Virus record (IMG/VR): IMGVR_UViG_3300014827_000003
Span: 1 to 52,692 of that record
Direction: 5' to 3' (one strand)
Source: a virus
Length of the DNA stretch: 52,692 nt
Shown: piece by piece, positions 5,933 through 16,124 of the stretch
Numbering within the stretch: position 1 is the first letter of the stretch
Layout: every line of letters begins with the position of its first letter
Translations under genes and position numbers: made by a program
Notes under the pieces: model-generated
The model's input: the letters and a program-made list of their open reading frames with translations, nothing else
What the model was told of the DNA's origin: nothing
Databases searched by the model: none

Positions 5933-6131
5933 GCAAGAAGAGCTGAAAACTTTTCTTAACTCCCAAATACCTAAAGCTAAATCTATGCAAGGGCAGAGAA
6001 GGTTTAAGATGATGTATCTTAATAGAATAGCTGATGCTCTAGGGGTTAATTCTTATGAGGTAGTACTGTCAGACCTTACGGATCAGCAGTGTGACCTTGT
6101 TAGAAGAGAGGTTTTAGCTTGGAAAAGATGA
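5913..6131 (+). CDS. Hypothetical basic protein
   Basis: 72 residues, helical, rich in Lys and Arg at the N-terminus (MQNRKSKQEELK). The middle (FKMMYLNRIADALGVNSYEV) could be a helix-turn-helix. Its stop overlaps the methyltransferase ATG as ATGA. No family recognised. Confidence 0.6.
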   Translation: MQNRKSKQEELKTFLNSQIPKAKSMQGQRRFKMMYLNRIADALGVNSYEVVLSDLTDQQCDLVRREVLAWKR

Positions 6132-6913
6132 ATACTCCTAGGAAATTAAAAGTCCTAGATCTATTTAGTGGAATAGGTGGCTTCTCTTTAGGACTTGAAA
6201 GAACGGGCGGCTTTGAAACAATCGCTTTTTGCGAAATCGATGAAAACTGTAGAGAGGTTTTGTACAAACACTGGCCCGAAATAACAGCGTTCCACGATAT
6301 ACGATATGTTAAAAACGTAGAAGAGATGTATGACATAGACGTAATTTGTGGGGGCTACCCCTGCTCAGGTCATTCGGTAGCTGGTAAAAAAGAAGGATTG
6401 AAAAATGAAGCAAGTAACTTGTGGTATGAATATCTCCGACTTATCGGAGAAATTAAACCAAGATATGTCATCATTGAGAACTCACACAATCTTAGAAGTA
6501 CAGGATTGGCAGGAGTTATCCAAGATCTCTGCGAGAAGGGCCTTAATTGTGAATGGCAGATTTTTTCTGGTTACGGAATTGGTTCCCCACATCAACGGGA
6601 AAGAATTTACATCGTGGCATGGAGAAACGACATACCCTACCCCGACCCGTTTCGATCATGGCCGACCTATTCTAAAAAAGAGGAAACCAAATCCGAGTGG
6701 TGGGCAAAAAGACGGTTTGAGAGAAACCCTTTGTACGGACAAATCCCAACGCTTGAATCCAAAACTGTTAGAACTGATGATGGGTCTTCCAATAGACTAC
6801 ACATTAGTGGAATTGAGGAAAGAATTAAACAGTTGGGAAATTCTTTAGTGGTAGATATTGTATATGAAATCGGAAAAGGAATTTTAGCTAGTGAGGCACA
6901 GCAATGGCTTTAG
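6128..6913 (+). CDS. C5 cytosine DNA methyltransferase
   Basis: 261 residues from ATG 6128 (ATGA overlap); a TTG at 6119 with GAGAGG upstream is an alternative start. C5-MTase motifs appear in order: I LDLFSGIGG (10-18), IV GGYPCSGH with catalytic Cys79, VI IENSHN, VIII QRERIYIVA, and IX/X RTDDGSSNRLH with RIKQLGNSLVV. ENS and PCS replace the common ENV and PCQ, and the target-recognition region is short. It likely methylates cytosine in phage DNA to evade restriction. The +1 frame of the 3' part also encodes a methyltransferase-like end (6639-6848). Confidence 0.9.
   Translation: MNTPRKLKVLDLFSGIGGFSLGLERTGGFETIAFCEIDENCREVLYKHWPEITAFHDIRYVKNVEEMYDIDVICGGYPCSGHSVAGKKEGLKNEASNLWYEYLRLIGEIKPRYVIIENSHNLRSTGLAGVIQDLCEKGLNCEWQIFSGYGIGSPHQRERIYIVAWRNDIPYPDPFRSWPTYSKKEETKSEWWAKRRFERNPLYGQIPTLESKTVRTDDGSSNRLHISGIEERIKQLGNSLVVDIVYEIGKGILASEAQQWL
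6639..6848 (+). other. Overlapping +1 frame resembling an alternative MTase C-terminus
   Basis: In the frame one base ahead of the methyltransferase, an ORF open from 6405 to 6848 reads YPTPTRFDHGRP and then RLNPKLLELMMGLPIDYT. These match the C-terminal signature of another group of phage C5-MTases (PTP..D, then LNP.FVE.LMG.P..WT). The normal frame of the same DNA encodes the other standard ending (DDG...NRL...LGNS). Both look conserved, so this may be more than a shadow. Confidence 0.4.
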
Positions 6914-8607
6914 AAAACCCCTTCGATATTGTAGACGAAGTAAATTTATTTGAAGCCTATAACTATGCTCAAGAGATTGTTTCTGGTGAGAAAATTGCCT
7001 GTAAATATATTATTGGAGCTTGTAACAGATTTTTAAAAGATATTGAACTAACTAAAGACCCAACTTCAAAATATGTTTTCGATTCTGAGTATGCTGAAAG
7101 ATATTTAAGACTAGTGCAGAAGTTCGAACACTACATCGGTACTTGGGAAACCCCCACTATTAAATATGAGTCTTGGCAAAAGTGGGCATGGACCTTTGCC
7201 CTTGGATTTAAACATAGAAAAGATTTAAGAATTCCCAGATATAGAACAATCCACATAGAGGTCCCCAGGGGATGCGCCAAGTCAACAATGGCATCTCAAT
7301 GTGCTTTATATTTTCTCGGCCTTGAAAAGAATAGAGCAGGGGAAAAAATTGCTTGCTTTGCAACAAAATCCTCTCAATCGAGAATCATTCTAGACGGTTC
7401 AAGATCAATGGCCCGTAAATCAGAACAATATTTAAAAGCCTCTGGAGTAGAGGTATTGGCCCATAAACTTGTAGACAAAAATACAGACTCAGAAATGATC
7501 TCAATGTCATCTGAATCTAAATCAATGGATGGTTTGAACTTAAGAGTAGCTTTCTTAGATGAGCTACATGCTATGAGTAGAGCTCTATTTGACGTAATCG
7601 TATCAGGGCAAAAGAAAAGAAATGACTCATTAACAATATGCTGTACTACAGCAGGATTTAATACAGATGGGGTCGGCCACAGCCAATCACAATATGCCAA
7701 GAAAGTTGCACTAGGGGAAGTTGAAGATGAGACTTTCTGTGCGATTGTTTATACGATTGATGATGGTGATGATTTATTTGAAGAAAGTACTTGGAGAAAA
7801 GCAAACCCTAATTACGGGGTTTCCGTAGATCCAATTGCATTTGAAGCTACTGCAATTAAGGCTCGTGAAGTTCCTTCTGACCTTGCAAACTTTAAAGTTA
7901 AATCGCTGAATGTCTGGATCTCCGAGGGAAGTGCATATTTCGATGTGGCTAAATGGGATGAGTGTGCTGACCTGACTTTAAACATTGATAACTTCAAACA
8001 GAAATATTGTTACTCAGCAATCGACTTGGCTTCAAAGGTGGATTTAACTTCCTTTGGATTTTTATTCAGAGAGAATAGACATTACTATTTCTTCGATAAA
8101 TCTTTCATCCCCGAAAAAACCCTACAAGAATCTAAAAATGCATTGTTTGATAATTGTGTCGGGGACGGGTACTTATTTAAGACTCCTGGGGAAGCAATAA
8201 ATTACCCCATTCTTGAAAAAGAATTTGAAACCGAAATAAAAAAATTGAGGAATCATTCAACTCACTTTGATCCTTGGAACGCTGTGTCCTTCTCTCAAAG
8301 CATGGAAAAGAAAAATATAAATATGGTGGAATTTAGAATGAACGTGGCCAACTTCTCAGAGGCCATGAAAACACTTGATGCGCTAATCAGAGAAAAAAGA
8401 ATATCACATAATGGATCTCCCTTACTACGATTCTGCATTGGAAATGTGATTGCAAAACCTGATGCGGCTGGTAACGTCTATCCTCGCAAAAGCCATGAGA
8501 GTTTGAAGATCGATCCTATCATTTGTTTGCTTATGTGTTTGGCAGGGTGGATTCAAGAGAAGGAGGAAGAGAGCAGATATGCGGACCACGGAATTCGTTA
8601 TATTTAG
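6904..8607 (+). CDS. terL: Terminase large subunit
   Basis: 567 residues. The ATPase shows a deviant Walker A PRGCAKST (121-128), Walker B AFLDELHA (Asp219, Glu220) and a coupling motif around CTTAGFN. The nuclease half has SAIDLASKVDLTSFGF and a later Asp in THFDPWN. This matches the Terminase_1/HK97 type that pairs with P27 small subunits. It pumps and cuts DNA at the portal. The ATG overlaps the methyltransferase end by 10 bases. The last 77 bases are overlapped antisense by the homing endonuclease gene. Confidence 0.95.
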   Translation: MALENPFDIVDEVNLFEAYNYAQEIVSGEKIACKYIIGACNRFLKDIELTKDPTSKYVFDSEYAERYLRLVQKFEHYIGTWETPTIKYESWQKWAWTFALGFKHRKDLRIPRYRTIHIEVPRGCAKSTMASQCALYFLGLEKNRAGEKIACFATKSSQSRIILDGSRSMARKSEQYLKASGVEVLAHKLVDKNTDSEMISMSSESKSMDGLNLRVAFLDELHAMSRALFDVIVSGQKKRNDSLTICCTTAGFNTDGVGHSQSQYAKKVALGEVEDETFCAIVYTIDDGDDLFEESTWRKANPNYGVSVDPIAFEATAIKAREVPSDLANFKVKSLNVWISEGSAYFDVAKWDECADLTLNIDNFKQKYCYSAIDLASKVDLTSFGFLFRENRHYYFFDKSFIPEKTLQESKNALFDNCVGDGYLFKTPGEAINYPILEKEFETEIKKLRNHSTHFDPWNAVSFSQSMEKKNINMVEFRMNVANFSEAMKTLDALIREKRISHNGSPLLRFCIGNVIAKPDAAGNVYPRKSHESLKIDPIICLLMCLAGWIQEKEEESRYADHGIRYI

Positions 8608-10309
8608 GAAGCTTTAAAGTAACTGTTCCTGAATTCCAAATTTGGTGTATTTTATTAATCCTACAATTTTCTTTCTCGGATGCTCCAGGATTAAATTTAC
8701 CTCCTAAAATTTTAGCTAGTTCTTTCCTCCTAAATTTAAACTTAGATACTCTTTTATCCTTATACACATAGTGAAGTGTGCGGTTTTCAGTGACATACTG
8801 AAACCCGTTTTTGTAGTATGCTCCACCCTCAAATTTATCTAGATCAACATAACTCACTAAATCTTCCAATGGATTTGATCTCCTCCAATTAGTCAGTAGT
8901 TTTGAAAATCCTCCAACAACTGAGGTATCTATTTTATTTGCCATTCTCTGAAGTTCCCACCCGGAATACCCCTTCTTAAATGCCATTAGGCAAACTAGTT
9001 CTCCATCGTAGTTTAACCCAAGATAAGTTGAAGCAGAGCCACCACTTCCCAGAAGGTGATTTTCATCTAGAAATATTGTCGCTTTGTCAGAACTTACCTC
9101 TATTAGTAAACACTTTCTCGCGTATATTTTAGTGATATCCTTATTTAGAACATTCCTTAAATAGGCTTTGACTACTTCCTTGTTATTTTTAAACTCATCT
9201 TCCCAAATTTGAATTACTCTTATTCCCTCTCTATTGAAAGCCCTTCTTTTATTCGTGTGGTAATTAGAATCCTTAGTCCTAGATGAGTGGAAATGCAGTC
9301 CGTTATACTCAATTGCCAAATTAATTTCAGGGAGGAAAATATCTGCTTCAAGATTACTTAGTAATAGTCCTGTCCAGTTCCTTAAAATTACCCCTCTGTA
9401 AATCTCTCCAATATAACTGGCTAAGACCTCTTCTCCCTTAGAGAAGTTTACAGCACATTTTGGACAACCCATAACGCAGCCATGCGCATGGTCCTTCCAA
9501 TTCTGTAGAAAACTCCCGTGAGATGGGCAGACAATATTCAAATTTTCACAATATCTAGTATCCCAATCAACTAAGGAGTAATCATATTTACTACTGTATT
9601 TCTTATTACAATAGTCCAACCACTCGCCAAATTTTAAACTTAGCCTAACAGAAGTTTCATCTCCCTTACATTTAGGACACCCTACATTTTTTGTTACTTG
9701 GTCGTAGTACAAACTAGCAAATTCCCCATGTGTGCCACACACACCAGTTATTTTGGAGTGTGAGTCTTTATATTCTTTTCCCAGATATGGGAAATCGTAT
9801 CTGTCCCCGTAAATTTCCAGTAAGGTTTTAGAAACTTTGTCAATAGAGTTTCTTCTTAAATCTGCCCCATAGTCTCTGGAACATTTAAAGCAAGCCCTAT
9901 TTTCAGATCGGGTGAAAAATTGCCTAACAGTTTTAGAGAATACTCCGTGAGTAGGGCAACTTAAATTAAGTGTCAGATTATAGTTAATAGGGCCGACACA
10001 TTCTGAAACAATACTAACACCTAATTTATAAGCTCTGACCAGAACTCTATCCCAGGTAATTCCCTTGCTGGAAATTATCGCAGAAGTAGTTCTCTCCCTA
10101 CCACATTTAGGACACCCCCTTTTTGTCGAAACATGAGAACTAGGGGTTTGGGAAAAATCTCCATGGATTTTACACCCTATAATAATATTATAGTCATTCC
10201 TGATATACTCCGATTTAGAGTAGTCATAAAGATCCCCGTGAACTTCAACGGCTCTTTGCAACATAGTGGCGGTATCCACCACTCGAATCTTATTTTTCAA
10301 ATTATCCAT
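8531..10309 (-). CDS. Hef-like homing endonuclease (zinc modules + EDxHD nuclease)
   Basis: 592 residues on the opposite strand to the packaging genes. About four repeated DUF723-like modules (VHGDLYDYSKSEYI..., then CxxHG and CPKC, ending near residues 75, 145, 212 and 288) probably bind DNA with zinc. A nuclease follows: EADIFLPEINLAIEYNGLHF (about 318-338), GIRVIQIWEDEF (about 360-371). This is the architecture of T-even Hef-type enzymes that spread by cutting phage DNA. An extended -10 box sits just upstream. It lies exactly between terL and the protease, and its own stop is inside terL. Confidence 0.88.
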   Translation of the reverse strand: MDNLKNKIRVVDTATMLQRAVEVHGDLYDYSKSEYIRNDYNIIIGCKIHGDFSQTPSSHVSTKRGCPKCGRERTTSAIISSKGITWDRVLVRAYKLGVSIVSECVGPINYNLTLNLSCPTHGVFSKTVRQFFTRSENRACFKCSRDYGADLRRNSIDKVSKTLLEIYGDRYDFPYLGKEYKDSHSKITGVCGTHGEFASLYYDQVTKNVGCPKCKGDETSVRLSLKFGEWLDYCNKKYSSKYDYSLVDWDTRYCENLNIVCPSHGSFLQNWKDHAHGCVMGCPKCAVNFSKGEEVLASYIGEIYRGVILRNWTGLLLSNLEADIFLPEINLAIEYNGLHFHSSRTKDSNYHTNKRRAFNREGIRVIQIWEDEFKNNKEVVKAYLRNVLNKDITKIYARKCLLIEVSSDKATIFLDENHLLGSGGSASTYLGLNYDGELVCLMAFKKGYSGWELQRMANKIDTSVVGGFSKLLTNWRRSNPLEDLVSYVDLDKFEGGAYYKNGFQYVTENRTLHYVYKDKRVSKFKFRRKELAKILGGKFNPGASEKENCRINKIHQIWNSGTVTLKLPKYNEFRGPHICSLPPSLESTLPNT

Positions 10310-10319
10310 ATCTTTACAT

Positions 10320-10328
10320 ATTATACCA
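10320..10328 (-). promoter_or_regulatory. Extended -10 promoter of the homing endonuclease
   Basis: On the minus strand the sequence reads TGGTATAAT, a perfect TATAAT (10320-10325) with the TG extension, only 10 bases from the endonuclease ATG. The -35 region is poor, as is usual for extended -10 promoters. The transcript would be nearly leaderless. Confidence 0.5.
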
Positions 10329-10360
10329 AATACTCTTTAATTACTATAGGAGGCCTAGAT

Positions 10361-11092
10361 ATGGGTCAATTAATTGATTTAAAAAGTGTTAAAAAATCTC
10401 TCACAATAAACAACAAAGTAAACAATGTTGCCGAAATTCTTCTTTACGATGATATTGGCGAATCTATGTGGGGTGGAGTTTCTGCAAAAGCATTTAAAGA
10501 TGCCCTAAACCAGATCCCTGCCAATACTAAAGAAATACAACTCCGAGTTAATAGCCCAGGAGGAAATGTTTTTGATGGAATGACCATGTATGAGCTATTG
10601 AAATCGGAAAAATCTAAGGGGAGAAAAGTAGTAGCCTATGTAGATGGGCTAGCAGCTTCAATAGCTTCTATCATTATATTAGCAGCAGATGAAATCATCG
10701 TTGGAGATGGATCTATGGTTATGATCCATAGACCTCTTGTAGGTGTTTACGGAAATTCTGCAGAACTAGAAAGAATGATTAATGTTCTAGATAAGATCGA
10801 AGAACAAATGATAACTTTGTATGCTAAGAAAACTGGATTAAGTAGAGCAGAAATTTCTAATATGCTAGCTGCTGAAACTTGGATGACTTCTACTGAAGCT
10901 ATCGACATGAAATTTGCAGACAGTAATTTTAAAAATTGTGACACTCTCCACATTGCAGCTTCAATGATTGAGAGATCTACACACTTTAATAAAAAACCTC
11001 AAATGAAAAATGCAGATGTACTTGTCAAAAACAAATTATCTGAGTTTAATAATAAAGCGAAAGAATACTTAAAAAGTAAAAATATAAAATAG
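10361..11092 (+). CDS. Prohead protease, ClpP (S14) type
   Basis: 243 residues. The ATG at 10361 is chosen because AGGAGG lies seven bases upstream; a longer frame extends back over the endonuclease gene and is not credible. ClpP hallmarks are VNSPGGNVFDGMTMY, the catalytic serine in DGLAASIAS (Ser100) and the histidine in MVMIHRP (His123). In this head type it cleaves the scaffold domain from the capsid protein before packaging. It precedes the capsid gene directly. Confidence 0.92.
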   Translation: MGQLIDLKSVKKSLTINNKVNNVAEILLYDDIGESMWGGVSAKAFKDALNQIPANTKEIQLRVNSPGGNVFDGMTMYELLKSEKSKGRKVVAYVDGLAASIASIIILAADEIIVGDGSMVMIHRPLVGVYGNSAELERMINVLDKIEEQMITLYAKKTGLSRAEISNMLAAETWMTSTEAIDMKFADSNFKNCDTLHIAASMIERSTHFNKKPQMKNADVLVKNKLSEFNNKAKEYLKSKNIK

Positions 11093-14699: not shown

Positions 14700-16124
14700 G
14701 TGGAAAATTTGGATAATGTTACCCTCTTAGCTTTGGTAGACGCTTTAGTCGAAGACGCTATTAAAAAAATTGATATGCCTGAAGTTCTTACTGGTCCAAG
14801 GGGGATCAAAGGTAAAGACGGTAATGATTTCAATCTAGAAGATCACGCAGAAGAAATATCCAATCTTATAATTTCACACATACCTAAAACATTTGAACTA
14901 TCCGAAGATCAGAAAGCAGAGTTAGTCGGACCTCGTGGACGAGATGGTAAAAATGGTGAAGATGGTAAAGATTACGATTTAGAAGTTTTAAAAGAAGCAG
15001 TAACAAATACAATATTAGAAATACGAGACACCTTAAAATTAAAATTTAATGATTTACTGGAAGAGGATATTGAATCCTTGAGAGGTCCCCGAGGGCTAAA
15101 AGGTAAAGATGGAAATGATTTTATCTTTGAAGATAATTCAGAGGCCATAACTAAAATAATCTCTAATACGATAGACCAAAATAAGGATCACTATAAATTA
15201 AAATTTTGTGACCTAACAGAGGAAGAAACTGAGGGCCTACGAGGACCTAGAGGTCAAAGAGGAAAAGCTGGTAGAGACTTCTCACTAGACGACTCAAAAC
15301 CCTTTATTGAAGAATCCCTAAAAGAAATATTTCAAGCTAATTCTGAAGACCTTAAATTAAAATTTATTAATCTCACAGATGTAGAGAAAGACAGTTTAAA
15401 GCTAAAATTTGATGACCTAACCTTTGATAACAAGTTGGAATTAAAGGGGGCAAGAGGTCAAAAAGGAAAGCAGGGAACTCAGGGAGAAAGCATAGTTGGC
15501 CCTCGTGGCCCTATCGGTCCAGTTGGTCTGCGAGGAATGCAGGGACTCCCCGGAAAAGACACAATTGCTTTTGATGGAAAAGATGGAGCAAACGGGAAAG
15601 ATGCTCCAATAGTTGAAGATGTAAAATTACTAGATAATAAAGATTATATCGCTCTAGAGTTTAACTATAGCGATGGAAGTTCTGTTAAAACTAACGAGAT
15701 AAAACTTCCATTAAAGTCTGCTACTAATATATATAATTCATCTTTTGCTTCACCTCAGTCTGCTGCAAATGTGCTGCTTTCCGGGGTAGTGTGTGACCCT
15801 TCAGTGTATGTAGGGTCTGCAGTATATATTGATAATAGTGGAACAGCCTTTAATGCAATAGCTACATCTATGGCAACTTCAAATGTTATAGGGATAGTGG
15901 AAAGTAAGCAGGGGTCTGGGCTTTGTACAATAAGGTTTTTAGGGGTATCTGGAAATATTTATTCGGGGTTAGACACTACCCAAGAATATTTTTTAAGTGA
16001 TACAGTACCAGGAGCAATAACAACGGCCATAATAAGTTCTGGGAATATCATATTAAAGTTAGGTCAACCTTTTAGCAGTTCCTCTTTCCTTGTACTTAAG
16101 GGAACAAGGATATTAAAAGTATGA
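14700..16124 (+). CDS. Collagen-like head/neck fibre
   Basis: 474 residues. Short Gly-X-Y blocks (GPRGIKGKDGND, GPRGRDGKNGEDGKD, GPRGLKGKDGND, GPRGQRGKAGRD, GARGQKGKQGTQG and a longer GPRGPIGPVGLRGMQGLPGKD) alternate with 30-40-residue helical modules containing LKLKFxDLTEE. The C-terminal 130 residues are a beta-rich head domain. It probably forms trimeric triple-helical whiskers on the capsid or neck. The frame starts at GTG 14700; TTG 14709 with AGGTGG upstream is an alternative. It is followed by an ATGA overlap. Confidence 0.8.
   Translation: MENLDNVTLLALVDALVEDAIKKIDMPEVLTGPRGIKGKDGNDFNLEDHAEEISNLIISHIPKTFELSEDQKAELVGPRGRDGKNGEDGKDYDLEVLKEAVTNTILEIRDTLKLKFNDLLEEDIESLRGPRGLKGKDGNDFIFEDNSEAITKIISNTIDQNKDHYKLKFCDLTEEETEGLRGPRGQRGKAGRDFSLDDSKPFIEESLKEIFQANSEDLKLKFINLTDVEKDSLKLKFDDLTFDNKLELKGARGQKGKQGTQGESIVGPRGPIGPVGLRGMQGLPGKDTIAFDGKDGANGKDAPIVEDVKLLDNKDYIALEFNYSDGSSVKTNEIKLPLKSATNIYNSSFASPQSAANVLLSGVVCDPSVYVGSAVYIDNSGTAFNAIATSMATSNVIGIVESKQGSGLCTIRFLGVSGNIYSGLDTTQEYFLSDTVPGAITTAIISSGNIILKLGQPFSSSSFLVLKGTRILKV

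Follow-up and report, generated by a model that had tools for sequence, protein, structure and literature searches.

Split and Multispecific Cytosine-5 Methyltransferases

Cytosine-5 DNA methyltransferases (C5-MTases) need the conserved motifs I–X. In the multispecific enzymes of the Bacillus phages SPbeta and phi3T, tandem recognition modules of ~40 aa lie between motifs VIII and IX, and in M.EcoHK31I the gene of the small subunit (beta) is nested within that of the large subunit (alpha), in another reading frame. The large subunit of M.EcoHK31I (YGGCCR; Lee, Kam and Shaw, 1995) carries motifs I–VIII and X and the predicted TRD, and the small one motif IX only (PMC3404938); the enzyme has found use as a naturally split MTase (PMC3439449). 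M.AquI is also a two-subunit C5-MTase, split between motifs VIII and IX, with IX–X set apart (PMC3404938).

The locus described here belongs to a phage and lies in the IMG/VR virus record IMGVR_UViG_3300014827_000003 (positions 1–52,692; the whole 52,692-nt stretch is called the window). Compared by motif layout it resembles M.EcoHK31I, with motifs I–VIII and X on a large polypeptide, motif IX on a small one, and the small polypeptide encoded within the large gene in a different frame. Based on this analogy, it most likely functions as a two-subunit C5-MTase. It differs from M.EcoHK31I in being a phage enzyme and in the placement of target recognition, since the TRD of M.EcoHK31I is assigned to alpha, whereas in the family of the window the variable region under target-type constraint appears in beta. 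Unlike in M.AquI, the genes are fully nested and motif X stays on alpha. The tandem TRDs of SPbeta and phi3T sit in one polypeptide, whereas the modules of this family are in beta, with up to six per protein and one in the window. No description of an overlapping gene in phage cytosine MTases was found in open-access papers; new here are the extent of the nested gene, the selection on both frames and the exchange of modules between MTases.

Architecture of the Locus

Alpha matched the Pfam profile PF00145 over residues 10–186 only (3.2e-47) and M.HhaI in phmmer (2e-23). It had motifs I–VIII and X, with the catalytic PC at 6359–6364, and P78, C79, E117, R157, and R159 (PC, ENV-type and RxR motifs) were invariant in the alpha alignment. 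The catalytic-domain profile and these three motifs identify its gene as that of a C5-MTase. The ORF spans 6119–6913, TTG 6119 being a possible alternative start.

Table 1. Predicted features of the methyltransferase locus, in window positions.
Feature	Position	Strand	Remarks
Alpha, putative C5-MTase large subunit	6128..6913	+	261 aa from ATG 6128
AAGGA, Shine-Dalgarno-like site	6393..6397	+	7 nt 5' of the beta start
Beta, putative nested +1-frame gene	6405..6848	+	147 aa, entirely within alpha
Beta N-terminal part	6405..6632	+	overlaps the catalytic motifs of alpha; possible docking segment
Single PTP module, YPTPTRFDHGRPILKKRKPNPSGGQKDGLRETLCTDKSQ	6633..6749	+	beta frame; proposed target-recognition module
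Motif IX, RLNPKLLELMMGLPIDYT	6750..6803	+	beta frame
Motif X, QLGNSLVV	about 6830..6853	+	alpha frame; from alignments

A previous reading made from the sequence only had described two different C5-MTase C-termini in overlapping frames. Sequence and translations bear out that both frames are open and read as described, and that bases 6774–6803 encode LMMGLPIDYT in the +1 frame and T-DDGSSNRLH in frame 0. As stated, the +1 frame also has the LNP..LMG.P..WT signature known from phage MTases. The extent of that frame had been understated, as its ORF runs from ATG 6405 to a stop codon at 6846–6848. The end of frame 0 had been taken as the standard one, which holds for motif X but not for motif IX, located in the +1 frame. 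Alpha thus does not have the full set of motifs I–X on one polypeptide, and a motif census of the family gave the same picture, with X in alpha in 240/261, IX in alpha in 5/261 and IX in beta in 227/261.

The LNP..LMG..WT element is assigned to motif IX by alignment. In the relative L252 it is found in frame 0, immediately ahead of motif X, and its gap-free alignment to M.HhaI 273–315 has a weak score (5 bits) and is colinear with the strong catalytic match. In beta it aligns to LTPRECARLMGF of Dcm, and it is the part of the window beta that matches phrog_1008.

Because the contig is metagenome-derived, compensating indel errors in the assembly might be suspected, but a second IMG/VR contig, which may come from the same virus or sample, was 100% identical to the window over 6783 bases, and the same architecture was found in 80 other loci. 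With this identical contig and the same layout in independent relatives, no sign of sequence error was seen at the locus, and the chance of such an artifact is negligible.

The Nested Gene

The position of the beta start codon was shared with the nearest kin L220, L222, L223, and L224 (ATG; GTG in L224). All four had AAGG 7–9 nt 5' of this start, although its conservation may partly reflect the conserved K-G codons of alpha. Beta would be translated from its own start. In a pairwise comparison it was 40% identical to its L222 counterpart over 130 residues (E 2e-25), and a module ..NPSGGQK.. followed by L(N/S)PxFVEWMMGY..WT was common to the window and the same four relatives.

Profile searches placed beta in the family phrog_1008. 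The window beta matched it at E = 2.7e-4 over 21 residues around motif IX only (4e-4 in a repeat profile match), and the betas of relatives matched at 1e-15 to 1e-36. Pfam and NCBIfam searches with beta returned no family, and the beta alignment, searched as a profile against PDB, gave no match. AF2 gave the window beta alone a pLDDT of 64 and a pTM of 0.26, with confidence only near the motif IX helix. In the fused relative P0003, AF2 modelled the catalytic domain, for which M.HhaI was the best match, and the module region (199–332) had a pLDDT <50. Since the models of beta and of the C-terminal part of P0003 were not confident, no fold is claimed for beta.

The lack of a Pfam or NCBIfam family and a fold that resisted modelling would also suit an expressed beta that is a different protein, e.g., an inhibitor or anti-restriction factor. 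This is very unlikely, given that beta supplies the very motif missing from alpha, that its order with respect to motif X is correct in the fused relatives, and that the same part is covalently within the MTase in L210, L206, and L213.

Distribution among Phages and Prophages

A tblastn search with the +1 tail of the window hit MTase genes of other phages, again in +1 relative to the MTase frame. Every relative that was opened had a second protein made of an N-terminal part, at least one (W/L/Y)PTPxAxD module and then LNPxWVEWLMGFPxGWT. Matching family ORFs overlapped an MTase ORF exactly in +1 in 215 of 224 cases (218 loci). These loci were mostly found through the +1 motif, and a fairer test came from two sets retrieved with the frame-0 protein only. 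The +1 stop-free run exceeded the synonymous-permutation null in 36 of the 40 loci of the phiGT1-MTase set (p ≤ 0.05; +2 frame, 2/40) and in 77 of the 81 loci of the set fetched with a profile of window-like MTases (+2 frame, 1/81). All 81 window-like loci (80 fetched plus the window, some being near-duplicates) had a +1 match to a beta profile from which the window was left out. A direct search for close relatives of the window protein returned only the identical contig and L008, so that kin had to be compared through a family alignment. None of the kin is close to the window, the best identity being 47–56%.

The nested +1 gene occurs in hundreds of related genes of phages and prophages and is mostly missing from annotations. 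It is absent from the annotation of phiGT1, R9.1, BKO1-TP3, ABMM1, and ESSI2, and annotated in a few phages, as "Mte8-like protein" in K1 coliphages, as "g55 internal gene" in Paenibacillus phage Shelly or as a second "DNA methyltransferase". The nested ORFs of the K1 coliphages and Shelly are the same +1 gene as in the window, and their records give no function or subunit role. The name of phrog_1008, "DNA methyltransferase", suggests an enzyme, whereas its members here are without catalytic motifs and are the overlapping partner. These results correct the reading of phrog_1008 and suggest where target specificity is located. They imply that many of the C5-MTases annotated in phages are only part of an enzyme whose other part the annotation has missed, and that the annotated protein expressed alone, e.g., from a recoded gene, is expected to be inactive.

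Selection on Both Reading Frames

The +1 stop-free run of the window was 148 codons long, compared to a mean of 72 in synonymous permutations (0/300 as long). Against a beta profile that excludes the window, its +1 translation scored 57.3 bits, versus 28.3 ± 7.1 for the null (0/2000 synonymous permutations). That codon-permuted alpha still averages 28 bits, well above zero, indicates that part of the +1 resemblance, including the GYDAEW/GMMRNG stretch, is a passive effect of the conservation of alpha, but the excess over the null is not passive.

Among 60 disjoint pairs of relatives (68–97% aa identity), with isolated substitutions classed by both frames, omega within the overlap was 0.10 for the +1 frame (+1|N0) and 0.11 for frame 0 (0|N1). 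In the same pairs, omega of the +1 frame was 1.16 before and 1.38 after the overlap. When the overlap was split at the first PTP (76 disjoint pairs), omega was 0.05 in frame 0 and 0.25 in +1 for the N-terminal half, and 0.33 and 0.09, respectively, for the C-terminal half, so that +1 is the better conserved frame over the PTP modules and LNP..LMG..WT. Across both pair sets, omega of the +1 frame was about 0.10 in the overlap and 1.2–1.4 outside it, the outside figure set against the two halves being 1.3–1.4. The ratio of divergence at codon position 3 to that at position 1 was 0.63 in the overlap and 7.8 and 4.3 outside it (pairs at 90–99.5% identity), position 3 diverging more slowly than position 1 solely within the overlap. 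Monomeric MTases of the Dcm type showed no +1 excess.

The proposal to look for purifying selection in each frame is thus answered in relatives, in which it was present in both frames within the overlap and absent in +1 outside. Selection was measured in kin and not in the lineage of the window, for which dN/dS is impossible because there is no close relative. A +1 similarity arising entirely as a by-product of the codon and amino-acid constraints of alpha is extremely improbable: it agrees with the raised null, but not with the observed score, an omega far below 1 only in the overlap, or a C-terminal half in which +1 is the more conserved frame.

The sequence-only reading had explained the +1 end as an alternative C-terminus, joined to the catalytic part of alpha by a programmed +1 frameshift at ATA CCC TAC. 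Both frames are open at this site, and a group that combines the catalytic part with LNP..LMG..WT in a single frame does exist, as supposed (L210, L206, L213, and L252). Nevertheless, the frameshift is very unlikely. Selection on the +1 frame extends upstream of the slip site (the 0.25 above), beta is equipped with a conserved start codon and a ribosome-binding site of its own, relatives vary in sequence around the PTP site, and the shifted product would lose motif X. Neither a conserved slip site nor +1 selection confined to the downstream part was found. An internal start giving a separate protein accounts for all four points, and the +1 frame is read here as a nested gene, beta, inside the alpha gene and not as an alternative C-terminus. 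The related idea that one motif simply became the other does not hold either, since LMG..WT and DG..NR occupy distinct positions in fused relatives, and L210 has both in one frame.

Rearrangements and Mobile Modules

The two parts were arranged in several ways among relatives. L210, L206, and L213 have both parts on a single polypeptide, the catalytic part being in frame with LNP..LMG..WT. In L252 (2142–3056) and L253, motif IX is in frame 0 directly before X and the PTP modules stay in +1, a layout that we interpret as a natural frameshift-type rearrangement of the locus. In L036 (2449–3522), L090 (2486–3595), and L066 (2417–3442), alpha ends after motif VIII and the +1 ORF has the modules, IX and X, which by layout is a natural split of the M.AquI type. 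Such variety is what one would predict for a single enzyme made of two pieces, alpha and beta.

The C-terminal half of beta held 0–6 modules in the family, with a median of 41 aa by the simple PTP pattern. Modules 70–91% identical were found in MTases whose catalytic domains were <45% identical (36 pairs, 40 loci), implying that the modules move as cassettes. They are probably target-recognition modules; their exchange and the strong +1 constraint suggest that target recognition lies in beta.

Based on these observations, the locus is very probably that of a cytosine-5 DNA methyltransferase made of two polypeptides, whose genes are nested. Alpha, read in frame 0, would fold the catalytic domain carrying motifs I–VIII and X. 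Beta would initiate independently at its ATG and be read in +1 off the same mRNA, providing the small-domain elements absent from alpha, which comprise motif IX and most likely also the target-recognition module; its N-terminal part may serve in docking. The two would associate and methylate one DNA target, probably protecting the phage genome from host restriction; beta translation, subunit assembly, recognition by beta and the protective role are inferred.

More broadly, and with some reserve, we favor the view that this is a very widespread and ancient same-strand overlap of phages and prophages. The specificity half of an MTase would be overprinted on the catalytic gene, the swappable ~41-aa modules being read in +1 and the same bases forming a tolerated linker in frame 0. 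If true, phages change methylation specificity by swapping DNA cassettes kept open in two frames. Long overlaps between genes on one strand are seldom found and difficult to demonstrate, and the clear dual-frame signature of hundreds of cases makes this family a natural test bed for overprinting.

Additional Observations

In L213 (1832–2539), a segment with HNH-like cysteines seems to break alpha immediately upstream of PCQ, which would suit the insertion of a homing endonuclease into the MTase gene. In L051 (2120–2350), a complete alpha/beta pair carries at its downstream end a second PTP module copy and LNPDWVEWLMGYPIGWT. Elsewhere in the window, an HNH/homing endonuclease (8531–10309, minus strand; phrog_559, 2.5e-89) lies between the large terminase (6904–8607) and the head maturation protease (10133–11092), overlapping both, and collagen-like/tail-fiber repeat matches (14700–16124, plus strand) adjoin the portal gene.
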